Below, in pieces: positions 3,191-20,515 of a stretch of DNA of 64,000 bases. Within the stretch, counting starts at the first letter, position 1. The number at the start of each line of letters is the position of its first letter. A program made the position numbers and the translations under genes. The stretch comes from Halothermothrix orenii H 168 (GTDB lineage: Bacteria; Bacillota; Halanaerobiia; Halanaerobiales; Halothermotrichaceae): assembly GCF_000020485.1 (NCBI RefSeq), contig NC_011899.1:1458501-1522500 (forward strand). Direction: 5' to 3'. The notes beneath the pieces were generated by a model. That model was given only the letters and a program-made list of their open reading frames with translations, did no database searches and was not told where the DNA came from.

Positions 3191-3227
3191 GACGTACCGG
3201 AACACCTTGCGATCTATACGTTTATAT

Positions 3228-3671: not shown

Positions 3672-3717
3672 TTAAAACCCCTTCCCCCTTTGTATAATCC
3701 CTTATCTCCGGTATGTC

Positions 3718-3902: not shown

Positions 3903-3935
3903 GATGGTGCGGACGGCTTATAATAATTAAAACAA

Positions 3936-4205
3936 TTATTTATATTGTTGTTTTTTCCATTTCAACCATTTCTTACTTATAAGAGTCGCTTTTTCATTGT
4001 TAATAATGTAATTACATGGAAAATCTTTGCATTCTCCACAAAAATTAATATCTTTTTTTAATACACAATCATATGTGAAGCATTTATCTGTTTCATTATT
4101 ATAACATCCCTTACACTTTCCAGATAAATAAGAAGGACAACTCCCACAATAAAAACCACAAGGTGCTATTAAATCAGAGTTTAATTTATTATTGATAAAT
4201 ATCAC
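3936..4205 (-). CDS. DUF3795 cysteine-rich protein
   Basis: A protein of about 89 residues with the DUF3795 pattern: LIAPCGFYCGSCPSY (Cys 16, 20, 23), CKGC (31, 34), then CFTYDCVLKK and NFCGECKDFPC. The eight or more cysteines suggest zinc or Fe-S binding; the family has no established reaction. The start is uncertain: the first in-frame start is GTG at 4205, and GGGGTGAT lies on it rather than in front, so initiation may be slightly downstream. Single gene of its cassette. Confidence 0.75.
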   Translation of the reverse strand: MIFINNKLNSDLIAPCGFYCGSCPSYLSGKCKGCYNNETDKCFTYDCVLKKDINFCGECKDFPCNYIINNEKATLISKKWLKWKKQQYK

Positions 4206-4288
4206 CCCAAACTTAATTGATAATTTTAAATATATTTATATCTGTCCTTTTTAATATTTAAAATGCAAAAAAATCAGTCTGCACTTTC

Positions 4289-4458
4289 GTATAACGTCCC
4301 AGGAATTTCAGACGTGCTCGTCCCGATAGGGTTGGCAGGTCTTTTGCTGTTGTAACGATTTCCCTATTGCAAAAGACATGACAAAGAGCATGTCCTTCAG
4401 GCAACGGACGTTTTTTTTAATTATCTACCCAGTGATAAGCGGAAATTCCTTGTTAGGC
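4289..4458. repeat. attC-like site 7
   Basis: Cores are GTATAAC at 4289-4295 and GTTAGGC at 4452-4458. The inner stem is GTCTTTTGC/GCAAAAGAC. The right-hand arm differs from its neighbours (CAACGGACGTTT, then GCGGAAATTCC) but still pairs with GGAATTTCAGACG on the left. Confidence 0.8.
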
Positions 4459-4473
4459 GACGTGTGACTTTTA

Positions 4474-4947
4474 TCATTTTATCTCTTTTAGATGATTAAT
4501 ATCTATATAATCTTTATTTTTTGTTATTTCAAATAGGGAATTGCCTTTATCATATTCTCCCTCTGGAAAACTACCATATCTCCTTGAAAAATCAAGATAC
4601 TTGATTACCTTCTTATCTTGAACAAATAACAATAAATACACTCCATCATCATATTTAATTGTTGTTATTATAGAATTAGACCATTTGACCCCTTTTTTAC
4701 TGCAAAATATTTTGGGGTCAGTATATGGACCTACAATATATAACTTATTCCAATTAAATTTTGTCATCTTATTTAAGTCTAAAACAATTTTATCCTTGTT
4801 ATTAATATCTTCTGTTATTATTTTTATCATTTTATCATTAAGTTCTTTTGCTTCAGTTACCTCATAGTTATTAACATAATTTATGTAATATAATACCATT
4901 GAACTTATTAAAACGATTAAAATGATAATATAAAAAGTCTTTTTCAT
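4474..4947 (-). CDS. Membrane-anchored or exported hypothetical protein
   Basis: About 157 residues. I chose the second ATG (4947), which sits better behind GGAGGA. A single hydrophobic segment (residues about 5-22, FYIIILIVLISSMVLYYI) is followed by an extracellular-type domain. The motif FNWNKLYIVGPYTDP (W-x-K-x-Y-x-x-GPYT) recurs in small uncharacterised Firmicutes lipoproteins, as far as I remember. There is no lipobox cysteine here. Sole gene of its cassette; function unknown. Confidence 0.65.
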   Translation of the reverse strand: MKKTFYIIILIVLISSMVLYYINYVNNYEVTEAKELNDKMIKIITEDINNKDKIVLDLNKMTKFNWNKLYIVGPYTDPKIFCSKKGVKWSNSIITTIKYDDGVYLLLFVQDKKVIKYLDFSRRYGSFPEGEYDKGNSLFEITKNKDYIDINHLKEIK

Positions 4948-4972
4948 CATGTTCCTCCATTTTTCACATGTC

Positions 4973-5135
4973 GCCTAACGTTCTGGGTATTTTCGACGTG
5001 CCCGTGCCCCTTGGGCCTGGCACAAAGCTTGCCAACTCGCCACACTTTCCTCACTCTCACTGCAAGCTTTGTGCCTGAGGGCATGTCCCGTAGGGTAGGC
5101 TGGTCTTTAGCCGTAACGGAAATACTGTGTTATCG
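4973..5135. repeat. attC-like site 8
   Basis: Cores are GCCTAAC at 4973-4979 and GTTATCG at 5129-5135. Arms GGGTATTTTCGACGTG and CCGTAACGGAAATAC pair. Inner stem GCACAAAGCTTGC faces GCAAGCTTTGTGC. The left core pairs with GTTAGGC at 4452. Confidence 0.85.
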
Positions 5136-5187
5136 GATGGACAGGTTCTCTAAACTAATAAACTTTCTAAAAAAATAAATATATTAC

Positions 5188-6222
5188 CTAAATGTCACTC
5201 TTTTGAACTTCAATTTCTGGATGAATGATTATCCTATCATATTTTTCTACAGAATCCTTGTTAAATTTATATATTTGTATTATTAAGTCTTCAACTTTTA
5301 CATTATCTAACTTATTATAAAAATCATATGATATCTTTAACATAAAAATGTTATCAGATTTATCTTTATAAAACTTATATCCAAAGCAAATTAAATCATC
5401 ATTACTAGTAAATATTTGCTCCATTCCTTTAAATTGATTTGTAAATTCATCCTTTGATCCAATTTTCCATTCAGTTGGCGCATAACCAACAGAAGTATAT
5501 TGCAAATAAATATTATATTTAAATACATTGTTGTTCTTTTTATCATTTATCACTACATTCATATTATGATCACCATTTGATTTCTCGATTAACATAATAT
5601 CAGAATTTGATGCAGGATAACTATCTAATGAATTTAAATAATTATTGTTAATTATTCCTTTTAATTTATGAATTCCTGATATATCATAATATTTTTTAAT
5701 GTTATATACCACATTTTGTCTAAACGATGATCCATCAAAACGGTACTCAATAACTTGACTAATAAATTTCGTATCAAAGTCAGACTTTACCTTAATAAAA
5801 TGAACTTTATTATTGTAGATAACTGGAGACATAAAACCTTCCTTTTCATCTAATAAAGCAAAATTATTACCATTATTTTCATATATTTTAAAACTATAAT
5901 TTCTCATAGAACCTTGACATAAAACCAACAAAAGTTCTTTAGTATTATCATTATTTACGTCAACCAAATACGCATCACTAATAGCATTAAGTTCCCATGA
6001 TTCCATTACATTCGTAAATTCTTTATTTTTCATTAATTCTTTAATATTTATCTTAATACTTTCATTTGTTGATAACATATTTCTAATTTTATTATTAGTT
6101 AATCCTTCTGTTATGTACTCATCCCAAGATAGTTCATTTGCATTAGTTAGAACATTGACAAATATCATAGTCAATATCATTATAAAAATATAAATCTTCA
6201 ATATCCATCTGTTTCTTGTCAT
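5188..6222 (-). CDS. Exported hypothetical protein with a VCBS/FG-GAP-like segment
   Basis: About 344 residues from the ATG at 6222, which follows GGTGGGAG; a GTG four codons upstream (6234) is the less likely start. An N-terminal hydrophobic segment (ILKIYIFIMILTMIFVNVL) acts as signal or anchor. Near residue 90 the sequence DVNNDNTKELLLVL resembles the calcium-loop turn of integrin-like or VCBS repeats (D-x-N-x-D-x-x-x-E-L). No enzyme motif is seen. Sole gene of its cassette, whose ends GTTATCGGA and its complement match over about 16 bases. Confidence 0.65.
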   Translation of the reverse strand: MTRNRWILKIYIFIMILTMIFVNVLTNANELSWDEYITEGLTNNKIRNMLSTNESIKINIKELMKNKEFTNVMESWELNAISDAYLVDVNNDNTKELLLVLCQGSMRNYSFKIYENNGNNFALLDEKEGFMSPVIYNNKVHFIKVKSDFDTKFISQVIEYRFDGSSFRQNVVYNIKKYYDISGIHKLKGIINNNYLNSLDSYPASNSDIMLIEKSNGDHNMNVVINDKKNNNVFKYNIYLQYTSVGYAPTEWKIGSKDEFTNQFKGMEQIFTSNDDLICFGYKFYKDKSDNIFMLKISYDFYNKLDNVKVEDLIIQIYKFNKDSVEKYDRIIIHPEIEVQKSDI

Positions 6223-6264
6223 ATATACTCCCACCTTAATAATATTAAAATATACCTGTCTTTC

Positions 6265-6424
6265 CGATAACGTTCCCGGTGTTCCCGACGTGCCTGTGCC
6301 AGAGGCCTGTCACAAAGCTTGATTACGGCTGCATTACTAATCTCATTTATTTCAAGCTTTGTGACAGAGGGCATGTCCCGCAGGGTAGCCTGGTCTGTGG
6401 CGTCACGGGAACACCGTGTTATCT
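6265..6424. repeat. attC-like site 9
   Basis: Cores are CGATAAC at 6265-6271 and GTTATCT at 6418-6424. The arms CCGGTGTTCCCGACG and CGTCACGGGAACACCG are the cleanest in the array and pair perfectly except for two extra bases (CA) in the right arm. It serves well as a type sequence. Confidence 0.9.
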
Positions 6425-6465
6425 GAAGTCCCGGTTTATCTAGACATAATATACACAATGTCACA

Positions 6466-6494
6466 TTGACATTTTATACGTATGGTAATATAAT
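6466..6494 (+). promoter_or_regulatory. Promoter and candidate operator of the DUF6364/PIN cassette
   Basis: TTGACA (6466-6471), 17-base spacer, TATAAT (6489-6494): a consensus sigma-A promoter. Two direct TATACGTA-type octamers flank the -10 (about 6475-6482 and 6496-6503) and are plausible binding sites for the ribbon-helix-helix antitoxin, which would give autorepression. Confidence 0.75.
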
Positions 6495-6517
6495 AATATA
6501 CGTAAGGAGTGATCAGA

Positions 6518-6769
6518 ATGCAAAAAAAGCTTACTTTGAGCATTAATGAAGATTTAATTGAATTCGCACATGTTTTTTCTAAAAAAACTAACCAATCCAT
6601 TTCCCATATTGTAGAAGAATATCTTAATGAACTTAAAAAACAAGAAAACAATCCTGATAAAAATAATTTTAAACCCAAAATAAATAAGTTATATGGTGCC
6701 TTTGAAAGCCAACCTATTCCAGATAAAAAAGAGTTGAGGAGAAATTTTCATGAAAAAAATTACAATTGA
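6518..6769 (+). CDS. DUF6364-family antitoxin (ribbon-helix-helix type)
   Basis: An 83-residue protein from the ATG at 6518, with AAGGAG eight bases upstream. It begins MQKKLTLSINEDLIEFAHVF, the strand-helix-helix pattern of RHH/DUF6364 proteins, and continues SKKTNQSISHIVEEYLNELK. DUF6364 proteins are encoded next to PIN-domain toxins and act as antitoxin and repressor. The stop overlaps the toxin start by 20 bases. The gene is on the plus strand, opposite to most cassette genes. A stub of the same gene occurs at 2713-2846. Confidence 0.8.
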   Translation: MQKKLTLSINEDLIEFAHVFSKKTNQSISHIVEEYLNELKKQENNPDKNNFKPKINKLYGAFESQPIPDKKELRRNFHEKNYN

Positions 6770-7172
6770 TCTTAATGTTATTCTTGATTTTTTAAACAAA
6801 AGAAAAAAACATGTACAAGCAGCTAAAATAATAGAATTATGCAATGACAACCAAATTCAAGGATATATATGTGCACATGAAATTACCACTTTAGCTTATT
6901 TTCTTATGAAAAATTACAATAACTCTAACAAAGTAAAATTTGTTCTTAATGAACTTTTAGATATGTTTAAAATAATACCAATAACAGAAACAATCCTAAG
7001 AAAAGCCTTAAATTCCAAAATTAAAGATTTTGAAGATGCAGTAATAGAAATCAGTTCACATGAAAACGAAATAGATTATATAGTTACACGAAATTTAGAT
7101 GATTTTAAACACAGTAGTGTGAAATCGATTAGTCCAACTGAATTTCTTGCTCTCTATAATAAATTTAATTAG
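6750..7172 (+). CDS. PIN-domain ribonuclease toxin
   Basis: A 140-residue PIN domain. The metal-binding acidic residues are visible: D7 in ITIDLNVILD, E44 in HEITTLAY, D93/D96 in DFEDAVIE, and D117 in TRNLDDF. PIN toxins of TA pairs cut RNA, often tRNA or rRNA. It is encoded directly after and overlapping its likely antitoxin, in a cassette whose own promoter is at 6466. All catalytic residues are intact, so it may be functional. Confidence 0.85.
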   Translation: MKKITIDLNVILDFLNKRKKHVQAAKIIELCNDNQIQGYICAHEITTLAYFLMKNYNNSNKVKFVLNELLDMFKIIPITETILRKALNSKIKDFEDAVIEISSHENEIDYIVTRNLDDFKHSSVKSISPTEFLALYNKFN

Positions 7173-7179
7173 GGATTTC

Positions 7180-7338
7180 AGATAACGTTCCTGGCATTTC
7201 CGACGTTGCCGTTCCATCAGGATTGGCATGGCTTTGGCTGCAACAACCCCTTCCCTCTTTTTATGCAAAAGACATGACAAAGGCAATGTCCTGCTAGGGT
7301 AGGTTGGTCTTTACCGTCACGGAAATGCCATGTTATAT
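7180..7338. repeat. attC-like site 10
   Basis: Cores are AGATAAC at 7180-7186 and GTTATAT at 7332-7338. Inner stem GGCTTTGGCTGCA against TGCAAAAGACATG. The left core begins only eight bases after the PIN stop codon, so the cassette is very tightly packed. Confidence 0.85.
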
Positions 7339-7401
7339 GACGTTGGACAATCTTTTTAACTCGTTTTATTTATATTTATTCAAGAACACAAAATATATAG
7401 T

Positions 7402-7430
7402 TTTATTTTTTATCATAATTATGATATAAT
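7402..7430 (+). promoter_or_regulatory. Promoter with overlapping palindromic operator, Phd/ParE cassette
   Basis: TATAAT is at 7425-7430, with a weak -35 (TTTATT, 7402-7407) 17 bases upstream. The perfect 16-base palindrome TATCATAATTATGATA (7411-7426) runs into the -10. This is the expected position for a Phd/YefM repressor site. Confidence 0.65.
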
Positions 7431-7463
7431 GTTATTAATAATAATGATAAAGGAGTGTTGTGT

Positions 7464-7730
7464 ATGCCTAATATTAGACCTGTTTCAGACTTAAGAAATA
7501 ATTTTAAACAAATATCAGAGTTATGCCATGAAGAAGGTGAACCAGTATTTTTAACCAAAAATGGCAAAGGCGATATGGTTGTTATGAGTCAGGCTCTTTA
7601 CGAAAAACAACAGTCTTTAATAGAACTATATCAAAAATTAGGAGAAGCAGAATTAGAAAGTGAATCAAATAAAAATAGAATTTCTCATAAAGATTTAATA
7701 AAAGAAATGAAGGCTAAGTTAAATGAGTAA
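7464..7730 (+). CDS. Phd/YefM-family antitoxin
   Basis: An 88-residue protein from the ATG at 7464, behind AAAGGAG. MPNIRPVSDLRNNFKQISE and the later VVMSQALYEKQQSLIELYQKL match the Phd/YefM fold: an N-terminal DNA-binding and dimerisation domain and a C-terminal helical tail that would cover the toxin. It overlaps the downstream toxin by 8 bases. Expected to autorepress through the palindrome at 7411-7426. Confidence 0.9.
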   Translation: MPNIRPVSDLRNNFKQISELCHEEGEPVFLTKNGKGDMVVMSQALYEKQQSLIELYQKLGEAELESESNKNRISHKDLIKEMKAKLNE

Positions 7731-8034
7731 AAAATATAAAATATTATATCTCCCCATCGCCCGTAAAGATTTAATAGAGATAATTGAATATATTCAACAA
7801 GACAACCCAAGTGCAGCCTTAGAATTATTAAATAAAATAGAAGAAACAATTTCTAAACTAGAAAATTTTCCATATATGGGTACACAACCAAAAGATTCAT
7901 TATTACAATATAAGGGTTATCGGGTATTAATAATTGAAAGTTTCTTAGTTTTCTACGTAGTAAAAGGAAATAAATCAGAAGTCGAAATTAGGAGGATCAT
8001 TCATGGTAAAAGAAAATATGATTTTTTACTCTAA
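7723..8034 (+). CDS. ParE/RelE-superfamily toxin
   Basis: 103 residues. YKILYLPIARKDLIEIIEYI opens with the two beta-alpha elements of the ParE group, and the core RVLIIESFLVFYVVKGN and the end VEIRRIIHGKRKYDFLL follow the family pattern. ParE members poison DNA gyrase while RelE members cut mRNA; the sequence is closer to ParE but the target cannot be read off. It is paired with the Phd/YefM antitoxin. The full-length gene lacks frameshifts. Confidence 0.85.
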   Translation: MSKKYKILYLPIARKDLIEIIEYIQQDNPSAALELLNKIEETISKLENFPYMGTQPKDSLLQYKGYRVLIIESFLVFYVVKGNKSEVEIRRIIHGKRKYDFLL

Positions 8035-8087
8035 GTCCTTTTCTAGAACTTATTCTTTTTTACATTTTATACCCAAGGTCAAATGTC

Positions 8088-8244
8088 ATATAACGTTCCT
8101 AGGATTTCCGACGTGCTCGTACCGAAGGTCTGGCAGAAGGTTTGCTACCCAAATACTTACCTAATTAATTGCAAACTTTGTGACAGAGAGCATGTCTCGA
8201 AGAGTAGCCGCGATCTTTAGCGTGACGGGAACACCATGTTATAC
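8088..8244. repeat. attC-like site 11
   Basis: Cores are ATATAAC at 8088-8094 and GTTATAC at 8238-8244. The inner stem is weakened (GCAGAAGGTTTGC against GCAAACTTTGTG). The right core does not match the next left core (GTCTAAC at 9717), so the cassette between them has ends of different origin. Confidence 0.85.
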
Positions 8245-8371
8245 GAAGTAGTACCCTGTTTATAGTGATCCGGGTATTGGGAATGTTAAATTATTAATTA
8301 AAGCATATGACCTTCCCCCCATTTGTCGGACACTGGGTTTAGGTATATAATTAACCCAGGAGGTGCCCATA

Positions 8372-8668
8372 ATGGGAAGGAAAAAATATTCAGAAGAATT
8401 TAAAAGAGAAGCTGTGGAACTTAGTTTTAGCTCGGATAAATCTTGCACAGTTATAGCAAAAGAACTAGGTATAAGTTATCATAATCTAATCAGATGGCGT
8501 AGGGAATACAAAAACAAAGGTGACTTAGCTTTCCCAGGCAATGGTAAACAAAAGTTAACCCCTGAACAGGAAGAAATTCAAAGACTAAAAAAAGAATTAA
8601 ATGATATAAAAATAGAGCGTGATATATTAAAAAAAGCAGTGCGCATCTTCTCAAAGGAACCGAAATAA
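8372..8668 (+). CDS. IS3-family OrfA (helix-turn-helix)
   Basis: 98 residues from the ATG at 8372 behind [25 protein letters not shown] and [20 protein letters not shown] form the HTH_Tnp_1 DNA-binding domain, followed by a leucine-zipper-like helix ([21 protein letters not shown] split over 8570-8630). The A-run AAAAAAAG at 8629-8636 near the 3' end is a typical slippery site for producing the OrfAB transposase. Confidence 0.9.
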
Positions 8669-8706
8669 TATATGGTTTCATCCGGGATCACAGTGATGAA
8701 TTTACT

Positions 8707-9540
<834 letters not shown>

Positions 9541-9716
9541 TTTATTGGGGGAACCCCAAAAATATTGAATGAATTACATAATAATTTTTTACACTTGCAT
9601 ATCCCTTTAAAAAACTTAAAATATATACAGTAATGCTTAAATAAAATCCTATTAATGATGAATAGTAAAGAATTCTTTTCATTTTAAAACTCCTCTTACA
9701 CAAATTAGGCAATGTC

Positions 9717-9829
9717 GTCTAACGTACCCGTATTTCCGAAGTCCAGCAACCCTTAGTTAGCTCTTAACTTGGGTTGCTGGATTTGGGTGCAGTGACGACA
9801 GGAACGGAAACGGAAATATATTGTTAACT
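9717..9829. repeat. attC-like site 12, short class
   Basis: Cores are GTCTAAC at 9717-9723 and GTTAACT at 9823-9829. The arms are CGTATTTCCG/CGGAAATAT and the inner stem CAGCAACCC/GGGTTGCTG replaces the AAGCTT stem of other sites. At 113 bp it groups with the site at 1512; both share TTTGGGTGCAG on the right side. Confidence 0.8.
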
Positions 9830-9874
9830 GAAGTTGCTACCTCTTAAAACTATAAACTTAACAATAACTCTTTT

Positions 9875-10965
9875 CTATACTGAAAAATTATTATCTTTAT
9901 AATCGTTTAATATTTCTTTAACATCACTTTTACTATTAATATGATTATACATAATCTTACTCCTGGGAATAAAGTTTTTAATTTTATTTAAATTTATATT
10001 ACAAAATAACATAGTCTTAAACTTTAGATAAAGCTTATATTCGTCATCAATTGTCTTTTTGAAATTTATTCTTGAAAAGATTTGTTCGTAACCTGAATAA
10101 ATAACAAGAAAATATACATAAATAGTAAACATAACAGATAAGACTGATGGAAGAAATAATAATTTAAGTTGTTTTATTAAATTAATACTATCTAAATTTG
10201 AAATAGTCATTTTAATTGAATGAAATAAGGCATAAAAACCTATAATAGCAAGAATTGTATTAAGAACATTAATTAGTAACTTACTGTCTTTATCTTGATA
10301 TTCTGGGTTATTATTCATAAATGCTACTAACATTGATAAAACAGTTATAATAAAAACTTGTATTAATTCATATATCAATGAAAAACTGTATAAATTAACA
10401 ACAAATGTTAATATAATAATTAATTTAATATTATCTTTTATAACATTAATAAAATAATTGATATCTTTAGCATTATCAACAGCTCTAAATGAAGAAATAA
10501 ATGCTACCGCTACTATCCAAATAATTGTATTTTTTAATAATGATATATCCCAAAAACCTATTTTATGTAAAAATAATATCATTAAATATACATATATGCC
10601 CATACTAAGGTACCAAAATATAAAGTGTTATTAAAAAGCAACTTAATTAAACCAGGAATTTGCTCCCTAGCACCTTTTACAGACAAAGCAAATATTATAA
10701 AAACAATCAACCAAAACCCAATAGCTAATTCCCTATTATTAAATACTTGACTTAAATTATTAAACCCATCTCTTATAAAATTTGTTGTTGTAGTAAATAT
10801 CTGTATTATCTTTATAAATACAGTATTTGAATTTTCTGTTATCACGTTTAATATTATCATTAATTTGTCATTATAATTATATAATGCTATCACGCAACAA
10901 ATAACAATTAATAATATTAATACTACTAACAATATATTTTTTACTGATTTACAATTTTTAGTCAA
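9875..10965 (-). pseudogene. Multi-pass membrane protein split into two overlapping frames
   Basis: The first frame (10582-10965, 127 aa) has two membrane segments and ends FGTLVWAYMYI. The second (9875-10603, 242 aa) starts GIYVYLMILFLHKIGFWD and has about five more segments. From memory, homologous proteins carry the stretch around LHKIGFWDISLLKNTIIW in the middle of a single chain, so I infer a frameshift in the TATATGTATATT dinucleotide run near 10590. The alternative is two translationally coupled genes overlapping by 22 bases. Function unknown. Sole content of its cassette, with well-matching ends (GTTAACTGAAG at 9823, complement at 11032). Confidence 0.55.
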
Positions 10966-11025
10966 ATTCCCTCACCTCAATGATTCTTATTAACCTAACT
11001 TTTTCTTAATTATGGTAGCAATTTC

Positions 11026-11171
11026 AGTTAACGTTTCTGGGATTTACGACGTTGCCGTCCCGTTAGGGTTGGCACGTCTTTTCGCTGCTCTTTTTTGCAA
11101 AAGACGTGCCAAAGGCAATGTCCCGAAGGGCAGGCTGGTCTTTGCCGTCCGCGGAAATCCTCATGTTAGGC
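11026..11171. repeat. attC-like site 13
   Basis: Cores are AGTTAAC at 11026-11032 and GTTAGGC at 11165-11171. Arms GGGATTTACGACG and CGTCCGCGGAAATCC pair. The inner stem GTCTTTTCGCTG/TTTTGCAAAAGAC is compact, making this site 146 bp. Confidence 0.85.
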
Positions 11172-11184
11172 GATCGTTCATTAT

Positions 11185-11874
11185 CTATTTTGGTAAATCA
11201 TCAAGGTTTGCATTTTCAGGATATACTAATTTCATTTTGTCATTATGTATCCAGTTTTCTTTAGTTAATTTTCCATCTAAATATTCATCTAATTTATTTA
11301 CAATGTCGTCAACTACTTTTTTAGCAGTTTTTACATGTTCTACTCTTATCGCATAAGGATCCTTTGGTATTTGTGTTTGTCTGTAAATTATATCTTTTTC
11401 CTTAACTTCTAACTTTTCAGGAATGTCCTTCCATGATAACGGAATCCATTCACCATAAGTTTTTGCTTTATAGTAAACAGACCTATTATGTTTTGGATGT
11501 ACAAAATCATTTCTTAGTCGTATAAGTTCTGAAAAATGACTCCAAGGATAACTTGACTTGTCAAAACTCATTTTTTTATTCTTTGAACATAATAAAGGAA
11601 CTAGCTCCCATTTATCTTCAATGGAAAACTTTTGCTCTCTTCTCATAATAAAACTTTTAATATATTCTGGTAAAAAGTGATCCATAACACGATTAATTAG
11701 CCCTTCTAAACTAAAAATATATAATAATAATGCAGTCCTACAAAAGCGTGTATGATCAAAACTATTTTTATTATTGCTGTTTTCTGCTTGTTCTTGAAAA
11801 AATAATGCATCTTGGTATAAATAATGAAAGCTATTAACGAAACTTTCAAAAATGAATTGTTTATTTTCTGGCAT
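11185..11874 (-). CDS. Hypothetical protein with a HEPN-like RX4H motif
   Basis: 229 residues from the ATG at 11874, with AAGGGGGG nine bases upstream; the longer frame to 11994 reads through the attC site and is not real. The protein is helical and soluble. Residues 121-126, RNDFVH, preceded by SELIRL, match the R-x4-6-H signature of HEPN ribonuclease domains, and the helical stretch CRTALLLYIFSLEGLINRV fits a HEPN core. A HEPN-type RNase is a reasonable guess, not established. No partner antitoxin is in the cassette. Confidence 0.55.
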   Translation of the reverse strand: MPENKQFIFESFVNSFHYLYQDALFFQEQAENSNNKNSFDHTRFCRTALLLYIFSLEGLINRVMDHFLPEYIKSFIMRREQKFSIEDKWELVPLLCSKNKKMSFDKSSYPWSHFSELIRLRNDFVHPKHNRSVYYKAKTYGEWIPLSWKDIPEKLEVKEKDIIYRQTQIPKDPYAIRVEHVKTAKKVVDDIVNKLDEYLDGKLTKENWIHNDKMKLVYPENANLDDLPK

Positions 11875-11897
11875 AAAATCCCCCCTTAATGAATGTC

Positions 11898-12037
11898 GCC
11901 TAACGTCCCGAGTATTCCCGACGTGCTCGTGCCGAAGGCCTGGCATGGATATTTGCTGAATTTTGCAAAAATCATGCCAGAGAGCATGTCCCATAAGGGT
12001 AGCCGGTTTTTGGCGTCACGGGAATACTCTGTTATAC
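11898..12037. repeat. attC-like site 14
   Basis: Cores are GCCTAAC at 11898-11904 and GTTATAC at 12031-12037. Arms GAGTATTCCCGACGTG and CGTCACGGGAATACTC pair. Inner stem GGCATGGATATTTGC/GCAAAAATCATGCC is shorter and differs in sequence from the common type, showing compensatory change. Confidence 0.87.
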
Positions 12038-12081
12038 GAAGGCAGCACAGAACATTATCAATTAATTATACATTATATACA

Positions 12082-12306
12082 CTAACTAAAAAAAGAATAA
12101 ATCAATAATCCTACTCCAATAAAAGAACTTAGCATATTAACACTTGCCCAAAAATCGGGAATCAAATCAGGGTTTCTTCTATAGTTATGCATAATTCCAA
12201 AAGACCAAAGATTAGCAATAGTTATAATAAGTGCAAACGCAAACAATGTGCTATTATATAAACGATATGTAGCTATTCCACAAATAATCACAGCAAAAAA
12301 ACCCAT
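12082..12306 (-). CDS. Small two-pass membrane protein, unknown
   Basis: 74 residues, with membrane segments at about 2-28 and 50-72 and a short polar linker HNYRRNPDLIPDF. Ribosome site AAGGAGG precedes the ATG at 12306. It follows the 182-aa gene on the same strand 40 bases downstream, in one two-gene cassette bounded by GTTATACGAAGGCAGC (12031) and its near-complement ending at 12939. No family recognised. Confidence 0.65.
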   Translation of the reverse strand: MGFFAVIICGIATYRLYNSTLFAFALIITIANLWSFGIMHNYRRNPDLIPDFWASVNMLSSFIGVGLLIYSFFS

Positions 12307-12345
12307 TAATTCAACCTCCTTCCTAAAATATTTTATATGATTTTC

Positions 12346-12894
12346 CTATAATTTAGAAAATCTACTCTGAATATTTCTAGCCTCAATAAATTGATTTACA
12401 AGAGAAAACAAATAGGTACCATCAATTATTGGATTTACTGTGTCTTCTAATATGTTTGACAAATGATATGAAAAACGCCCTAAAGCACTATTATCTGTTT
12501 CATCTGGTGCAAATTCTAAATTTTCATCTATAGGAAATAACTTGTATTGAGTATATTCACTATATCTTTTTGCTACTAAATTATTATTTATATTTGGAGT
12601 TTTGTTTATTGTATACTTAACAACATTATCCATAAAAGTTTTATGTTTTGATTCTGTTAGTATATTAGAACTTTGCCAACTTAAAGAATATAATAAAAAT
12701 ATTTGAAATTCATGAGCTAATTTCATTTGAATGTCGTCATTATCTGCTACTTCCCATTTTTTATAAATATCTTCATCATTTTCTGAACTCTGACTTAAAT
12801 CATTAAGTCTATGAACCGTAATAATAGAAAATTCGAATACTTCTTTTGATATTTCCTTAGCTAAAGATTTTGTTTTATTTCCAAACAACCCCAT
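12346..12894 (-). CDS. Hypothetical soluble protein
   Basis: 182 residues, mostly helical and acidic, starting MGLFGNKTKSLAKEISKEVF after an AGGAGGTG ribosome site. No catalytic motif or membrane segment is seen. It is the first gene of a two-gene cassette; the partner is a small membrane protein, so the pair may work together. I do not recognise the family. Confidence 0.65.
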   Translation of the reverse strand: MGLFGNKTKSLAKEISKEVFEFSIITVHRLNDLSQSSENDEDIYKKWEVADNDDIQMKLAHEFQIFLLYSLSWQSSNILTESKHKTFMDNVVKYTINKTPNINNNLVAKRYSEYTQYKLFPIDENLEFAPDETDNSALGRFSYHLSNILEDTVNPIIDGTYLFSLVNQFIEARNIQSRFSKL

Positions 12895-12932
12895 TTTTTC
12901 ACCTCCTTCTTGTTGAACTTTGTGCTGCTTTC

Positions 12933-13091
12933 GTATAACGTCCCCAGTGTTCCCGACGTGCTCGTGCCCATAAGGGCCTGGTCACAAAGTTTGCTCCCAG
13001 ACCACTTACCTAAGTTACTGCAAACTTTGTGACAGAGAGCATGTCCCGTAGGGTAGCCGGTCTTTGGCGTAACGGGAACCCTCTGTTATCT
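12933..13091. repeat. attC-like site 15
   Basis: Cores are GTATAAC at 12933-12939 and GTTATCT at 13085-13091. Arms CAGTGTTCCCGACGTG and GGCGTAACGGGAACCC pair. Inner stem GTCACAAAGTTTGC/GCAAACTTTGTGAC is perfectly complementary. Confidence 0.87.
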
Positions 13092-13112
13092 GAAGTAAAT
13101 GAGGATATAAAA

Positions 13113-13730
13113 CTATATAACAAAAGCAATTAATGAAAATGAAATAATATTTGCTACTGAATGGGCACACCAACTAGGGATAATACTACCATTCCCTAAA
13201 CGCTCATTCAAATATCCAAATATATAACCAAATATACCAGTCGTTAAAGTTAATACAATAATTACAATTATTTTATTAATATCAAAAAATATAACACCAT
13301 GTAATAATCCAAATAAAATAGATTGAATTATATTTCCATATAAAAATCCTAATTTATTATATAATCTTTTACCTAAAAATCCTCTGAAAATAATTTCTTC
13401 CCATAATCCTGTACCAATAATAGATCTAATTAGTAGTATTAAAACTGCTTGAATTCCAAACCCCAATTGTTTTAGATTCCCACTTACTGTACCCGGTGAT
13501 TTTAAAATAGTAAACAAATCAAACAAATAATAAACAAAAAATATTAAACTAACATATAAAATAGATACAATGATAGAATGAATAATTGTTTTTTTCTTAG
13601 GTTTTATTAAACCAATGTAATTAAAAAAATCTTTATATTCTTTTCTATTAAAATAATAAAATACAAATGGAATAAGCGAAAAAACAAACACAGATAAAAT
13701 TGCTGAAATTAAATTATTAAATACCAACAT
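13113..13730 (-). CDS. CPBP-family intramembrane metalloprotease (CAAX protease / Abi)
   Basis: 205 residues with about six membrane segments. The family motifs are present: EEIIFR at 111-116, His144 in GLLHGVIF, and HSVAN at 190-194. These bind the metal of CPBP (Abi/CAAX) glutamic intramembrane proteases. Some bacterial members give immunity to self-made bacteriocins or occur with abortive-infection functions; the role here is unknown. Ribosome site AGGGGGG precedes the ATG at 13730. Sole gene of its cassette. Confidence 0.88.
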   Translation of the reverse strand: MLVFNNLISAILSVFVFSLIPFVFYYFNRKEYKDFFNYIGLIKPKKKTIIHSIIVSILYVSLIFFVYYLFDLFTILKSPGTVSGNLKQLGFGIQAVLILLIRSIIGTGLWEEIIFRGFLGKRLYNKLGFLYGNIIQSILFGLLHGVIFFDINKIIVIIVLTLTTGIFGYIFGYLNERLGNGSIIPSWCAHSVANIISFSLIAFVI

Positions 13731-13786
13731 ATTTCCCCCCTAAAAAAATTATTTACTAATCATATTTTAAAACTCTCATTTATTTC

Positions 13787-13977
13787 AGATAACGGTACTG
13801 ATGTTTCCGACGTGACTGTTCCTGGACATTCTATGTAATAATTATATACTGAAGGATTGGCATGGTGTTTGACCCTTTTTAACTGTCAACCCAATGGTAA
13901 TGCAAACAGCATGACAAAAGTCATGTCCCGTCCGGGTAGGCTCGCTCTTTAGCCGTCACGGAAACATCATGTTATGC
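13787..13977. repeat. attC-like site 16, longest of the array
   Basis: Cores are AGATAAC at 13787-13793 and GTTATGC at 13971-13977. Arms GATGTTTCCGACGTG and GCCGTCACGGAAACATC pair. It is 191 bp because of an AT-rich central insert (CATTCTATGTAATAATTATA) much like that at 3718. Confidence 0.83.
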
Positions 13978-14335
13978 AGACGTTTTGGCAAATTAAGTAA
14001 TGAAATTCTCAGAACTCCTGGCACGTTTTCTTTGTTTGATTACTTAGTGAACCACCAAGTATGAAATATTAAATTTTTCCTCTTATTAAAAAGTTTACAC
14101 GAAGGGAAAAAACTTCTTTCCACTATTAAACTTACTGCCATTAATTAGATAAAGGAGTTCTGATCAAAACTGTAATTAGTTTTCTTAATAGGTTATTCTA
14201 AAAAATAAAAATTTACACTAAACCTTTCAGTTTCTTATAGTAATTTTTATTATCATAATAATAATTTTTATTTTTAATAATTCTATATTTGGTTTTAAAT
14301 GAAACATGGCAACCTTTTTTCTCAGCCAAAATGTC
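13978..14335. other. Cassette without a convincing gene
   Basis: About 358 bases between two good attC sites with matching ends (GTTATGC at 13971, GCATAAC at 14336). The longest frame I see is about 20 codons. The DNA is very AT-rich, and AAAGTTTACACGAAGG / CTTTCCACTATTAAAC stretches might form short stems. It could carry a small RNA, a promoter, or the remains of a gene. I see no clear signal for any of these. Confidence 0.6.
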
Positions 14336-14495
14336 GCATAACGTTCCTGGTGTTCCCGATGTACCCGTGCCCTTCAGGGCCTGGCGCAAAGTTTGCTCAC
14401 CATATACTTACCTAATTAATAGCAAACTTTGTGACAGAGAGCATGTCTCGAAGAGTAGCCACGCTCTTTGGCGTGATGGGAACACCATGTTAGAC
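14336..14495. repeat. attC-like site 17
   Basis: Cores are GCATAAC at 14336-14342 and GTTAGAC at 14489-14495. Arms GGTGTTCCCGATGTACC and GGCGTGATGGGAACACC pair. Inner stem GCGCAAAGTTTGC/GCAAACTTTGTG. Confidence 0.87.
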
Positions 14496-14502
14496 GAAGT
14501 TA

Positions 14503-15173
14503 TTAAGTTTTCTTTAGGTAATACACTCTATTAATCATATTATAATCTTTAAATTCAATTTCTTTATATTTGCAAATCTTATAATATGGAGCTATAATTT
14601 TTTTAATTTGTTTATTACTTATATTCCAAAAGTACAAACCTGATCTTTCTTTGTAAAAATCTTTTTTTATTTTTTTAAAATTATTATCTTTTTCTAATTC
14701 ATTTGGATTAAAATATGGATTCAATTTAAGAATTATTTTTCCTTTACTCTTTAATATTCTATAAATTTCTTTTAACACAAATTTAGCATCATTAGGCTTC
14801 AAATTATCAATTATATTAAATAAAATTGCTCCATCATATGTATTATCATTAACTTTTTTAATAAATCAATTCCTCCATATAAATAATTACATTTATCCTG
14901 TAATTGATTATTATTAACCACTTTTTTTGCAATATTTATTGCTTGTTCAGATAAATCAATTCCGTAAACTTTTTTAACTTTATAATTTAAACATCTATTA
15001 AGAACTTTACCGTTACCACAACCAAAATCAAGTATAAAATCTGAATCTTTACATAACCATTGAATCGCTTCTTCCATTTCTGAATAAGATAACTTTTCAA
15101 AAGGATCATATAAATCTTCTTGCTTAAACACCTTATCCCAATACTTTTCTGTTTCTTTATAGCCACCTTTCAT
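14503..15173 (-). pseudogene. Class I SAM-dependent methyltransferase, frameshifted
   Basis: The start is ATG 15173 behind AAGGAGG. The SAM-binding motif I, LDFGCGNG, is at residues 48-55, and motif II, YGIDLSEQAI, follows about 20 residues later. At about 14860 the frame is lost in an A run (six A on the minus strand; seven would restore LLKKVNDNTYDGAILFNII). The rest (14503-14802, EIYRILKSKGKIILKLNPYF) is the normal C-terminal half. The substrate is unknown; small cassette methyltransferases often act on metabolites. A base-calling error is the alternative to real decay. Confidence 0.8.
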
Positions 15174-15197
15174 AGCATAAACCTCCTTAATCATTTC

Positions 15198-15354
15198 GTC
15201 TAACGTTCTGGGTGTTCCCGACGTGCTCGTGCCGTAGGAACTGGCACAAAGCTTGACGGCGGCTATATTACTCACCTCATTTATTTCAAGCTTTGTGACA
15301 GAGGGCATGTCCGTAGGCAGGCCGCTAGGCCGTAGCGGAAATACCGTGTTATCT
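15198..15354. repeat. attC-like site 18
   Basis: Cores are GTCTAAC at 15198-15204 and GTTATCT at 15348-15354. The right arm is unusual (GGCCGTAGCGGAAATACC) and matches the site at 17237 rather than its neighbours, so these two sites form a sub-family. Confidence 0.85.
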
Positions 15355-15404
15355 GAAGTAGCCGGTTTTAATTTTTGATTGTTCGGTAATAATATTAATA
15401 ATAA

Positions 15405-15433
15405 TTAACATTAGATTCACAACATGTTATAAT
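15405..15433 (+). promoter_or_regulatory. Promoter of the HEPN/MNT cassette
   Basis: TTAACA (15405-15410), 17-base spacer, TATAAT (15428-15433), followed 24 bases later by the AAGGAG of the first gene. This is the third plus-strand two-gene cassette with its own sigma-A-type promoter. Confidence 0.65.
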
Positions 15434-15466
15434 ATAAGTAACATACTTTTATAAGGAGTTATACAC

Positions 15467-15865
15467 ATGTCTAATGAAAATTATTGGCTTGAAATTGCTA
15501 GTTACGATTTAAAAACAGCGGAAGCAATGTTAAATTCTAAAAGATTTTTATATGTAGGATTTATGTGTCATCAATCAATAGAAAAAATATTAAAAGGTAT
15601 TTATTCGAAAAAATTCAATGAAGTTCCACCTAAAATACATAATTTAGCAAGATTATTAAAACTAGTTGAGCTTGAAAATGAAATTCCTGATAATTTTATA
15701 GATTTAATTAATGAATTAAACCCATTAAATATCATAACAAGATATCCTGACCAGGAATTAGATATAATTAAAAACTTAGATTATGAATACTCCTCTACAC
15801 TTTTGGAACGAACAAGGAGGTTATTTGAATGGTTCAAAGTAAAATTACAATCAGAAACAGAATAA
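15467..15865 (+). CDS. HEPN-domain protein of a HEPN/MNT toxin-antitoxin pair
   Basis: 132 residues. NENYWLEIASYDLKTAEAML, GFMCHQSIEKILKGIYSKKF and PPKIHNLARLL are the standard blocks of the HEPN domain (PF05168) found next to minimal nucleotidyltransferases. In studied HepT/MntA pairs the HEPN protein is an RNase toxin that is neutralised by AMP transfer from the nucleotidyltransferase. I do not see a full R-x4-6-H motif, so RNase activity is uncertain. It overlaps the partner gene by 37 bases. Confidence 0.85.
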   Translation: MSNENYWLEIASYDLKTAEAMLNSKRFLYVGFMCHQSIEKILKGIYSKKFNEVPPKIHNLARLLKLVELENEIPDNFIDLINELNPLNIITRYPDQELDIIKNLDYEYSSTLLERTRRLFEWFKVKLQSETE

Positions 15866-16167
15866 ATCAATTTATTAATAAACTTCAAAAATATGTTACT
15901 GTAGACAAAGTGATACTTTATGGTTCATGGGTAAATGGTAACCCAGGTGAATTTAGTGATATTGACTTAGCAGTATTTTCTCCTGAGTTTGGTAAAAACA
16001 AACTTAAAGAACTTCAACTACTATCTAAATTAGCATGGGAAGTTGATGAATCAATTGAGGCAATCCCATACTCTTCAAATCAATTAAATAATCATGATCC
16101 TACAAATTTTGTCTATGAAATAATGAAAACTGGCGAAACTATATATGATAGAGCTATAAAGCATTGA
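15829..16167 (+). CDS. MNT-type minimal nucleotidyltransferase
   Basis: 112 residues. The polymerase-beta-like active site is clear: ILYGSWVNGNPGEFSDIDLA, with GSW at 32-34 and the metal-binding DxD at D44 and D46. It begins behind AAGGAGG inside the HEPN gene, so the two are translationally coupled. By analogy with MntA it would transfer AMP to the HEPN toxin and silence it. Last gene of the cassette, followed by attC site 19. Confidence 0.88.
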   Translation: MVQSKITIRNRINQFINKLQKYVTVDKVILYGSWVNGNPGEFSDIDLAVFSPEFGKNKLKELQLLSKLAWEVDESIEAIPYSSNQLNNHDPTNFVYEIMKTGETIYDRAIKH

Positions 16168-16217
16168 ATTGTTTTATAGTTCTTTTTTTATATGATTTTA
16201 TATTTAAGGGCTATTTC

Positions 16218-16374
16218 AGATAACGTTCTAGGGATTTACGACGTTGCCGCCCCTTTAGGGTTGGTATGGCTTTTGCTACCCAAATCCTCATACCCTCTGA
16301 CTGCAAAAGACATAACAAAGGCAATGTCCCGTAGGGTAGCCGGTCTTTGGCGTCACGTAAATCCCGTGTTATAC
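16218..16374. repeat. attC-like site 19
   Basis: Cores are AGATAAC at 16218-16224 and GTTATAC at 16368-16374. Arms GGGATTTACGACG and CGTCACGTAAATCCC pair, with a compensatory change relative to the GTTCCC type (TTTACG/CGTAAA). Inner stem GGCTTTTGC/GCAAAAGAC. Confidence 0.87.
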
Positions 16375-16382
16375 GAAGTCAA

Positions 16383-17207
16383 TCAAGCAATATCATTAAG
16401 ATCTATATTATAACCAGCAGCTTTTAATTCACGCCCTAATATAAATTTCCAGCTACCACTTGCGTCATATGGCACATATAAAATACCATCAAAATCAGAT
16501 GGTAATTCAACTTCTTCTAAAAAAATAGGACATACCTTCTCTCTTCCTAATTTTGCGATAAAATATCCCATTTCTACAAGAACATTTTGCCGTGCTCTAT
16601 ATTTATAATCATCTTCTGACTTAGCTTTTCCTAGGTCATCAGGAGTAAGAAGAATAATGGCAAAACCAACATCTGAATTATTCTCAAGTTTTTCGATAAT
16701 TGTTTGCCCTGTATTTGGTCTTTCATTTAATATGACTGCCTCAAGTCCTAATTTCTCTATTGTCCTAGCTACCGTTTCTTTTACTTCAATATTATGACCA
16801 TGAACTATAAATACTTTATTATTATCTGTTTTCACATCCTTTTCATCAGTATGTACTAAATGTTCAAAAAGAACAAGTCTTTCTCTTATAGATTCTAAAG
16901 CTTCAATTTTTTTCTTAATAATATCTTTATGTCTTTTTATTTTTTGTCCTAAAGGTTCTCTATAATGTCCTATAACACCAATAGTAAACCCATTATAATC
17001 TTCAATAATTTAATTTTCTTCAAATATTTTTCCAAGCAAATCTTTATTAAAGGCTGTCCATTTTTTATATTCAGTTTTAGATTGCTCTAATTCAGCAATA
17101 GTAGATATTTTGCGTTCATATAGTTTAATACCCAATTCAATTCTTTCACTTAAATATTTTTCAGCTTCCTTTTTAGGTATTTTTAATTTGTAATTTTTCT
17201 CTGACAT
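16383..17207 (-). pseudogene. TIR-like nucleotide-binding effector (PF10137 type) with an in-frame stop
   Basis: The start is ATG 17207. Codons run to a TAA at 17010-17012, then the same frame stays open to 16383. The first 65 residues form a helical N-terminal region; after the stop come about 57 more (IGVIGHYREPLGQKIKRHKD), then the TIR-like domain: KVFIVHGHN, AVILNERPNTGQTIIEKLE, GFAIILLTPDDLG, ARQNVLVEMGYFIAKLGR. This is the predicted nucleotide-binding TIR family used as CBASS/Pycsar effectors (NAD cleavage). The part after the stop could restart at GTG 16835, leaving the bare TIR domain. Nonsense mutation, readthrough or sequencing error are all possible. Confidence 0.8.
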
Positions 17208-17236
17208 TAATAACCAACCTTTCTTAGATTGATTTC

Positions 17237-17396
17237 GTATAACGTTCTGGGTATTTCCGACGTGCCCGTGTCCTTTGGACCTGGCGAAAAGCTTGACGAT
17301 AGCTATATTTACCCACCTCATTTTGTTTCAAGCTTTGTGTCAGAGGGCATGTCCGAAGGCAGGCCGCTAGGCCGTAGCGGAAATACCGTGTTATAC
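17237..17396. repeat. attC-like site 20
   Basis: Cores are GTATAAC at 17237-17243 and GTTATAC at 17390-17396. It shares the GCAGGCCGCTAGGCCGTAGC right half with site 18, suggesting these sites moved or were copied as a sub-family. Inner stem AAGCTTGAC against TTCAAGCTT. Confidence 0.87.
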
Positions 17397-17444
17397 GATG
17401 GCAAGGCGGTCTTTTTATTTTGTTAAATTTTTGGTTAAAATTAC

Positions 17445-18083
17445 TTATAATACTACCTTTTCTGGATTATATAATTTATCTTGTAATTTATTAATATATT
17501 TACCAACATGAAGCCCATCCATTAATGCATGATGGACCTGAACTGAAAAGGGTAACTTTAATAATTCATTTTCTTTAAAATATTTTCCCCATGCGATTCT
17601 AGGTACTGAATCAATAGGATTTAAATTAATTGGATGTGAAATACTTTTGAATGAAACCCAGGGAATACTAGTTATATAAATCAAATCATCTCTAGCTTCT
17701 TTATCACTATCAATAAGGTTTCCAGTGCTGTTTTTAATAGATTTTTCAACATTTTTTATAAAATTATCAAAGTTATTGTCATATTCTGCATAACAAAAAT
17801 TAAAGGTTTCTTCATCCATTAAGTATGTAAAAGATGGACTGATTTTATTGTGCTTAATAATTTCCTCATTACTTATACGTAATTTGAAGTTATCATTTTC
17901 ATTTGCAGTTTTCATAACGAAATATAGTAAAGTTTTAAAAAATGAATAATCATTTTGTTTAATAAAAGAATAAAACTTTGTTATATCAATATCTGTTGTT
18001 ATATTAAAATAGGGAATATCTAATTGTTTAAAGAAATTATAATGTTCTTTTCGTGACCATTTAGAAAGATCTATTTTCTTCAT
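17445..18083 (-). CDS. Type A chloramphenicol acetyltransferase-like protein
   Basis: 212 residues from the ATG at 18083 behind GGAGGT, the normal length of CatA enzymes (about 213-220). The catalytic block VQVHHALMDG is at residues 181-190 with the general-base histidine H185 and D189, and WSRKEHYNFF near the N-terminus is also typical. CatA uses acetyl-CoA to O-acetylate chloramphenicol; related proteins acetylate other acceptors. The second serine/phenylalanine drug-pocket residues cannot be judged. Sole gene of its cassette. Confidence 0.82.
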   Translation of the reverse strand: MKKIDLSKWSRKEHYNFFKQLDIPYFNITTDIDITKFYSFIKQNDYSFFKTLLYFVMKTANENDNFKLRISNEEIIKHNKISPSFTYLMDEETFNFCYAEYDNNFDNFIKNVEKSIKNSTGNLIDSDKEARDDLIYITSIPWVSFKSISHPINLNPIDSVPRIAWGKYFKENELLKLPFSVQVHHALMDGLHVGKYINKLQDKLYNPEKVVL

Positions 18084-18120
18084 ATTTACCTCCATTTTTA
18101 AGTATATTAGCCTGGCTTTC

Positions 18121-18296
18121 GTATAACGTCCCAGGCATTTCCGACGTGCCCGTGCCAAGCCTGGCACAAAGCTTGACGACGCGGCTGTATTACTACCCTC
18201 ATTTGTTTCAAGCTTTGTGACAGAGGGCATGTCCTTTAGGCAACGGACGATAATACTTTATTTCCTCTCTCAGTAAGCGGAAATGCCTTGTTATGT
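18121..18296. repeat. attC-like site 21
   Basis: Cores are GTATAAC at 18121-18127 and GTTATGT at 18290-18296. The right side has the CAACGGACGATAAT type also seen at 4289-4458, with arm GCATTTCCGACG/AGCGGAAATGCC. Length 176 bp. Confidence 0.85.
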
Positions 18297-18312
18297 GACG
18301 TTTTTGCATAAT

Positions 18313-18930
18313 TTATCCCTTATTATTCACAAAATCAAATGCTTTTTTGATATCTTCTGATATCATCTTTCTTTTTGTTTTCTCAATAAGATAATTTTTC
18401 CCTGTTTGTAAATACGAAGGGATTACTTTTTTTCCTTCATAATAATATTCACTATTTCTTATCTTATAAGTGGATCCGTTTGGAATTATCTTTTTGCCAG
18501 TCTTTCTCTTCCATATGTAATTCATTGCCTTTATAGCTACATCACCCATTAGAAGATATACTTGTACATTTGAAAAATAATTTATTTCTTGTTCTAGAAT
18601 TTCTGAACACTTTTTTATAGTCTTAGCTGATATCCGATATTGAAGCTTTGGACACTTAACTGCGGTTGTAACATATACTCCTAAGTCAATTAAATCATTT
18701 ATACTATCTATTGTTATTCCAGAATCTTTAAAAGCCTGTATTGTTGTCTTCATGTAGTCAGATTCATCGGAAAAATAAAAGTAATCTTCTCTATTAACTG
18801 GTGGCACTTCTGATATCATTAAAATCTTTATTTTCTCTGGCTCAATATCTTTTGAAGGTACTAAGAATCCATTTGAATTAATATCACTGCATAAAAGATG
18901 GTTACAATTTATGTGATCTTTAATATTCAT
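18313..18930 (-). CDS. Uracil-DNA glycosylase superfamily protein
   Basis: 205 residues from the ATG at 18930, behind AAAGGAG. Blocks match the UDG-like fold: KILMISEVPP (motif A region, 35-44), VYVTTAVKCPK (85-95), VYLLMGDVAIKAM, and VIPSYLQTGKN (169-179), where the usual motif-B H(P)S is PS. The catalytic Asp/Asn-His set of true UDGs is not obvious, so base-excision activity is uncertain; family 4/6-like or UdgX-like relatives are possible. Sole gene of its cassette. Confidence 0.7.
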   Translation of the reverse strand: MNIKDHINCNHLLCSDINSNGFLVPSKDIEPEKIKILMISEVPPVNREDYFYFSDESDYMKTTIQAFKDSGITIDSINDLIDLGVYVTTAVKCPKLQYRISAKTIKKCSEILEQEINYFSNVQVYLLMGDVAIKAMNYIWKRKTGKKIIPNGSTYKIRNSEYYYEGKKVIPSYLQTGKNYLIEKTKRKMISEDIKKAFDFVNNKG

Positions 18931-18974
18931 TATTTTCTCCTTTCCTTACATAATAAGCAAACGGCAAAAATGTC

Positions 18975-20206: not shown

Positions 20207-20515
20207 TTATAGCTGACTTTTTCCTTTGTTTTTTATTAACTGATCAAGTGGGCTTTTTATATTTTTAATACTATTTCTGCTTACGTGTGTATATATTTGC
20301 GTTGTTTTTAAATCCTTATGCCCTAAAAGCTCCTGAATATATCTTAAATCTGTTCCCCCCTCTAACAAATGGGTAGCAAAAGAATGTCGAAGTGAATGAA
20401 CAGATACCTTTTTATTTATTCCCGCCTTTTTACAGGCTTTTTTAAATACCCTCTGAACTGTCCTTTCTGTAAGATGATTATTTATCTTTTGACCAGGAAA
20501 TTTGATTTTAAAACT
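20207..20515 (-). pseudogene. Truncated integron-integrase-like tyrosine recombinase (C-terminal part)
   Basis: An open frame of about 102 codons with no start, ending at TAA 20207-20209. It reads [20 protein letters not shown], then [36 protein letters not shown] and ends NIKSPLDQL plus a basic tail. The H-x-x-R box, the following His (GHKD) and the nucleophile Tyr (IYTHV) are all present; the first catalytic Arg, the Lys and the integron-specific extra region lie upstream and are gone. The SPLD end is common to IntI but also to other XerA-like recombinases, so the family is likely rather than proven. It cannot be active alone. Confidence 0.75.

Follow-up and report, generated by a model that had tools for sequence, protein, structure and literature searches.

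A Putative HEPN Protein of an Uncatalogued Family in a Single-Gene Integron Cassette of Halothermothrix orenii

Introduction

The passages of PMC3710099 that deal with the HEPN superfamily describe all-alpha proteins in which an R-x4-6H motif ends helix 3, a polar residue, N, D or H, follows the arginine, an acidic residue lies in helix 2 and an insert may separate helices 2 and 3. The same paper mentions HEPN proteins without RNase roles, RNases linked to restriction systems (PrrC and others) and, as early as 2013, HEPN proteins encoded in integron cassettes (PDB 3jrt in Table 1, listed for Gammaproteobacteria). Furthermore, the part of PMC12373285 concerning AbiF reports that R and H of its RNQCAH motif are required for toxicity. 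As for integrons, the relevant section of PMC9024848 gives just one complete integron and a few integrase-less attC clusters for the Firmicutes, and a review (PMC12409362) describes that, of 179 integron cassettes from Vibrio cholerae, at least 16 were anti-phage when expressed. Our literature search retrieved no paper pairing Halothermothrix orenii with "integron", and the main text of the 2009 genome paper (PMC2626281) contains neither "integron" nor "cassette".

Here we analyze P0001, a protein encoded in a stretch of 64,000 nucleotides of the H. orenii H 168 genome (the window). It resembles the HEPN superfamily in helix order, in the R-x4-H that ends helix 3, in the N/D after Arg, in the acidic residue of helix 2 and in the insert between helices 2 and 3; however, it matches no catalogued family, has N rather than K/R four residues after the glutamate and possesses, at residues 127-177, a long segment linking helices 3 and 4. 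With the cassette protein 3jrt it shares carriage between attC sites and the R-x4-6H, whereas the 3jrt family is listed for Gammaproteobacteria. Compared to HepT/MntA, whose entries are among the best-ranked structural neighbors of both models described below, P0001 is about 100 residues longer and its cassette lacks a nucleotidyltransferase partner. Lastly, two of its relatives are located in restriction loci, as restriction-linked HEPN RNases are, but P0001 has no ATPase domain and does not lie beside a restriction system.

Results

The gene and its cassette

The P0001 gene occupies positions 11188..11874 of the window minus strand (229 amino acids; ATG at 11874, stop at 11185-11187), in an intact frame according to the ORF reading. 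Five bases 5' of the ATG there is a sequence, AAGGGGGG (11880..11887), assigned by eye as ribosome-binding-site-like. Residues 115-129 read SELIRLRNDFVHPKH and embed the predicted active-site motif R121-N122-D-F-V-H126 (codons 11497..11514), which comes after "ELIRL", where model helix 111-125 ends; the codon of E57, the acidic residue of helix 2, is at 11704..11706.

P0001 is the sole gene between two attC-like sites on the minus strand, one on its 5' side (11898..12037; model match 11901-12035, a seed of the profile) and one on its 3' side (11026..11171; model match 11029-11167, E 1.9e-28, from a seed chosen by eye, with box ends also set by eye). Cassettes are usually cut between G and TT of the R' box of attC; applying this rule to the two R' boxes yields an inferred single-gene cassette of 872 bases (11032..11903). 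About 30 bases of it precede the ATG, leaving hardly any room for an antitoxin RNA. Thus, the first-pass annotation, which had described an RNDFVH motif after a helical LIRL stretch in a cassette protein, was right about both the motif and the cassette, the strand being the minus one.

The attC profile was obtained as follows. A strict scan gave one site, a false one; a looser one yielded 12 hits, including 9 within 1-20600, compared to 4, 3, 1, 1, and 0 in five block-shuffled controls. Seven of the 12 were retained as seeds, the five GC-poor ones being dropped by eye, and an eighth (11027-11170) was picked by eye. Across the window, the iterated profile, which its eight seeds match by construction, has 23 matches. 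The minus strand accounts for 21, spread over 12-19132 (19 long and 2 partial); the other two, weak and on the plus strand, overlap minus-strand sites, and the region beyond 19132 has no match. In the 20 kb to the left of the window, five partial matches reach E < 0.001 and one more has E 0.33.

Beyond the array, on the minus strand, lies a C-terminal remnant of an integron integrase (20237..20488), covering 84 of the 315 positions of TIGR02249 (E 2.4e-33; 116 bits, cut-off 265), with stops upstream in frame. TIGR02249 also scores, without reaching its cut-off, in each of the 14 control genomes and twice elsewhere in the window's genome; the integron reading therefore rests both on the location of the 20237-20488 match next to the array and on its being by far the strongest.

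The companions that the same annotation had named (PIN, ParE, HEPN/MNT, and TIR) are real. Three toxin-antitoxin pairs, PIN_3 with DUF6364, ParE with Phd/YefM, and HEPN with a Pol-beta nucleotidyltransferase, are located at 6509-8034 and 15467-16167, all on the plus strand and hence against the attC sites. At 16386-16835 there is a CAP12/Pycsar-type TIR protein, for which the best PADLOC model is PDC-S35, matched in the C-terminal half of the profile only (residues 2-149 against positions 130-277 of 278). A transposase pair of the IS3 type, recognized by eye, lies inside the array at 8363-9540.

No promoter-like site was found 5' of the P0001 ATG in the scanned region 11875-12350; therefore, the gene would depend on read-through from the array. 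Given also the broken integrase, P0001 may not be expressed here. The search of 10950-12100 against Rfam returned no family at cut-off, the only signal being an rnk_leader match of 21.1 bits, out of the 50 required, inside the ORF.

Assignment to a family

P0001 did not match any Pfam family at E 1, nor any model of PADLOC or NCBIfam at E 5, and nothing in PHROGs fell below E 0.11. Extending the NCBIfam search to 15 members retrieved a single match, of one member to a ribosome-binding factor model (E 0.011), which we read as due to chance. In the Pfam scan of nine relatives (a set without L002, L003, L004, L018, and L019) no match exceeded its cut-off. Below it, L014 gave RiboL-PSP-HEPN (PF18735) over the motif, with 14.3 bits against a cut-off of 28.4 (E 0.039), and L020 gave NopRA1 with a lower E-value (0.0031). 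Another relative (L012:1483-2133) has a match of the same sub-cut-off kind to DUF6548 (PF20185; E 0.0096) over residues 93-140, including its R-x4-H; judging from the sequence, DUF6548 may also be HEPN-like.

The resemblance to RiboL-PSP-HEPN was further checked with hhalign, using A2, the alignment of 15 members described below, against ten RiboL-PSP-HEPN proteins. The R-N-x3-H context aligned in register, with probabilities of 2.0 and 5.2% over 19-20 columns, compared to 0.2% for each reversed control, and no profile-profile match extended beyond the motif. The ten derive from 18 matches, of which 11 of the 12 over cut-off were taken (L045 being omitted) and the six below it left out; L052 was then dropped as lacking the motif, a choice that favors alignment of the motif. 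Among the 151 near-relative genomes of the window's genome, itself included, PF18735 had four matches, none over cut-off.

Probing the PDB sequences with P0001 gave no match at E 10. With the profile of four proteins (A1, see below) a single hit appeared (E 1.5), which we took for chance, and A2 gave three, the best two of which (E 0.014-0.016) are to Cry6Aa, span the C-terminal helix only and were attributed to chance rather than kinship. The cassette protein 3jrt is not among any of these matches.

Predicted fold

The AlphaFold model of P0001, built on the four sequences of A1, has a pLDDT of 68.5 and a pTM of 0.70, with helices at residues 16-31, 39-67, 70-78, 85-96, 111-125, 131-140, 178-199, and 205-210. 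A relative (L003) modeled with the same four sequences shows the same core order (pLDDT 65.6, pTM 0.69); since the alignment is shared, this represents only a partial replicate. At this moderate confidence, both models contain the predicted all-alpha four-helix core of HEPN proteins, with E57 in helix 2 (39-67 in P0001) and R-x4-H closing helix 3 (R121/H126, helix 111-125).

According to VIA-align, HEPN proteins are the best structural neighbors of both models. With the P0001 model, ranks 1-22 of the 50 listed belong to the superfamily (Z 9.6 to 5.7), the first unrelated row being IKK beta (Z 5.4); with the L003 relative, ranks 1-25 of the 50 listed do (Z 8.6 to 4.8), followed by the first unrelated one at Z 4.6. 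The margin between the lowest HEPN rows and the first unrelated ones is just 0.2-0.3, and for helical bundles a Z below about 13 can mean a common arrangement. HepT entries are near the top of both rankings (Z 9.4 and 8.6, respectively). The entries 1ufb, 1wty, 9oij, MntA-HepT, and SO_3166 are taken by us to be members of the superfamily. The missing 3jrt, absent from both sets of 50 rows, excludes nothing. The other HEPN rows were assigned by title or through Table 1 of PMC3710099. Foldseek found no match for P0001 at E < 0.001, its best being the SO_3166-SO_3165 entry (E 0.5), and the viral fold library none below E 0.26.

These data support the HEPN-like reading proposed from the letters, for which a structure prediction and a fold search had been suggested; the helical core, whose absence was to count against that reading, is present in the P0001 model, and the remark that the protein is unlike known families is borne out in Pfam, NCBIfam, and PADLOC. 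Hence, the predicted fold and the motif support P0001 as a member of the HEPN superfamily belonging to no catalogued family tested. What is new is the family, uncatalogued in the databases searched; the HEPN kind itself is already known.

Conservation of the candidate active site

An R-x4-H by itself is unremarkable, because some R-x4-H occurs in 29.7% of shuffled P0001 copies and the narrower R[NDH]x3-5H in 15.7%. The multialignment is more telling. A2 comprises P0001 and 14 relatives, the least similar being 17% identical to P0001; it excludes L008, which lacks the motif region, as well as L005-L007 and L010, duplicates of L003, L002, L004, and L008. Only five of its columns are invariant, namely A23, E57, L117, R121, and H126. 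The residue following the arginine is always polar, N in 13 proteins and D in two. Judged on the aligned sequences, the invariance of R121 and H126 in 15/15, together with that of E57, exceeds chance. The relatives were gathered with a profile containing the motif, which favors its conservation; yet the profile spans the full length and nearly all other columns vary.

Around E57, the Ex3[KR] form that characterizes many HEPN families, although not all, is absent from the 15 members: position 61 (E+4) is N in 13, with I and Y in the remaining two, and R appears at E+5 in 7/15. Moreover, seven members, as counted by eye, carry T-x-[IL]-P-[KR]-[DN] between helices 3 and 4, within the segment corresponding to residues 127-177. 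Values of dN range from 0.41 to 0.62, and dS is saturated in five of six pairs and 1.90 in the sixth; the low dN compared to the saturated dS implies that the family represents a constrained protein.

Distribution and neighborhoods of the relatives

A short-pattern scan of the genomes of 84,980 species retrieved at least three relatives, from Terriglobia (Acidobacteriota; 54% identity over the alignment), Desulfobacterota (47%), and Zixiibacteriota (46%), each aligning with P0001 over almost its whole length. The profile of these four proteins (A1) matched in 3 of 57 genomes of the phylum of L003, 2 of 396 of that of L002, 10 of 132 of that of L004, and 1 of 398 of the window's own, counts that include the centre genome each time and of which two come from samples drawn from larger groups. 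P0001 alone as query matched in 1 of 101 genomes, its own. Such sparse occurrence in distant phyla, with identities of about 50%, suggests, from the sequences compared, horizontal transfer. Protein searches of plasmid and phage collections and searches of viral contigs with the single protein and the profile retrieved no relatives of P0001.

We then inspected 12 distinct places harboring relatives (a count without those of L011, L018, and L019). Two are restriction loci. In L003, a type I locus, the order is hsdM, hsdS, a small R-x4-H gene, the relative, broken frames, a DarG-like macro-domain gene, and hsdR; in L038, the relative adjoins a methylase/Mrr-type fusion. Another place, L002/L035, has two R-x4-H genes near the relative, seen by eye and named by no Pfam family. 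In the other nine (L028-L034, L036, and L037), the neighbors look ordinary, mostly by eye and in a few cases by Pfam; L030 and L037 lie at contig ends and L034 carries a shortened copy. Isocitrate dehydrogenase is found near members in two places, and a prenyltransferase/DUF362 pair likewise in two. No antitoxin-like partner recurs across the 12 places, and when four neighbor genes of the window were searched by tblastn (E 0.01) against 14 stretches from the relatives, which represent these 12 places, none had a match. The window's attC model found no site at these places; attC sites of other types would be missed by it.

Some side observations concern the same loci. The R-x4-H proteins beside members (L003:4364-4861 and L002:2965-4573, with RSNLFH, RCGLLH, and RNDAGH) have no Pfam match over cut-off, and the small one of L003 matches phrog_27260 (E 1.5e-9). 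The broken frames of L003 (5670-6832) resemble, by eye, the start of a second hsdR and a fragment of DarT, before the intact DarG-like gene.

Discussion

Proposed function

We propose that the one-gene integron cassette carries a HEPN protein with a single domain, P0001, whose family is uncatalogued and which acts as a metal-independent endoribonuclease that causes triggered growth arrest, a reading to which we assign a probability of roughly 0.6. By analogy with known HEPN RNases, its most likely role would be that of a conditional enzyme in dormancy or abortive defense. Its RNase activity, dimer, trigger, target, and defense role are all things that we infer. Two subunits would probably face each other and form a cleft, where H126 would promote attack of the RNA 2'-OH on the phosphodiester, with R121 and N122 stabilizing the reaction and E57 completing the site. 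RNA cutting without metal is expected because such a mechanism has been proposed for HEPN RNases (PMC3710099; PMC12373285 for AbiF). As no antitoxin gene shares its cassette, where an antitoxin RNA would hardly fit either, P0001 should need a trigger or stay unexpressed; it would probably be silent or inactive until, for instance, phage infection or loss of restriction, whereupon it would cut cellular or phage RNA and growth would stop. The defense role is suggested by the restriction neighbors, the companions in the array, and the work on other integrons covered in part of PMC12409362.

The orientation of the gene bears on this proposal. P0001 runs in the same direction as the attC sites, unlike the three toxin-antitoxin pairs of the array. 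Modules with their own promoter are often oriented against attC sites; the orientation of P0001, together with the lack of a promoter-like site in the scanned region, is more in keeping with a stored effector than with an addiction module.

In principle, other scenarios can account for the same data. P0001 might be a silent passenger, its cassette intact but the array around it decaying and the gene without present function in the host, which is a possible if somewhat doubtful scenario and one compatible with an unexpressed RNase activity. The integrase reduced to its C-terminal remnant, the missing promoter-like site, the IS3-type element seen by eye inside the array and the relative that has lost its middle, motif included (L008), would all agree with it; however, the frame is intact, the conserved residues are kept and AAGGGGGG is a strong ribosome-binding-site-like sequence. 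It is less likely that the HEPN fold binds RNA or a nucleotide without cutting it, as a regulator, in the way MtlR or nucleotidyltransferase-linked HEPN domains are thought to work. Several relatives adjoin ordinary genes (Pfam recognizes isocitrate dehydrogenase and DUF362, a prenyltransferase was seen by eye, and FUR lies beside the shortened copy), no antitoxin partner recurs, and MtlR structures match the models (3c8g with Z 6.9 for P0001, 3brj with Z 5.1 for the L003 relative). Against this, the part of PMC3710099 dealing with nucleotidyltransferase-fused domains and the MtlR family reports that R-x4-6H is wholly or partly lost in the former and in part of the latter, whereas here R, N/D, and H are present in 15/15 members.

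The idea that P0001 is the toxin half of a toxin-antitoxin pair, with a neighboring cassette or a small RNA as antidote in the manner of HepT/MntA or of AbiF with its RNA, seems to us improbable. HepT ranks near the top of the structural matches (Z 9.4), the array carries three other pairs, and the toxicity of AbiF needs the same kind of R-N-x3-H residues, according to the portion of PMC12373285 devoted to them. But P0001 is alone between its attC sites, with no second gene in the cassette and no recurring partner at the places of its relatives, where the four window neighbors searched are also without matches; Rfam detected no family at cut-off in 10950-12100, and the established pairs oppose the attC sites that P0001 follows. 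Least probable by far is an unrelated helical bundle in which R-x4-H is coincidental: the motif arises with a chance of 0.30 in shuffles, the Foldseek E-values are not significant, and the Z values fall in the range where VIA-align allows for common bundles, but R and H are among just five invariant columns in 15 members and in the 50 rows listed for each of the two models no unrelated structure outranks a HEPN one.

Returning to the endoribonuclease reading, one might go further and suppose an antidote-free, self-controlled HEPN RNase family that constitutes a single-gene anti-phage system, moves alone between phyla through cassettes and restriction loci, and has its own trigger sensor in residues 127-177; this is a speculative and rather unlikely extension. 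The family would in any case add to the HEPN RNases one that is unnamed in the domain and defense databases searched, with three candidate active-site residues, and P0001 offers a way to test whether defense genes are stored in integron cassettes outside the Proteobacteria. If it turns out to be ordinary, it would be just another toxin-like HEPN gene carried by a mobile array.

Two variants of the protein were encountered among the relatives. L008 (L034:8006-8425) encodes a close relative with an in-frame loss of residues ~66-160, motif included, adjoining a FUR gene. Finally, L016:598-2190 is a frame of 531 amino acids in which a family member forms the second half and the first half contains, by eye, an R-N-M-A-V-H of its own, so that its sequence would possibly correspond to a tandem HEPN protein.
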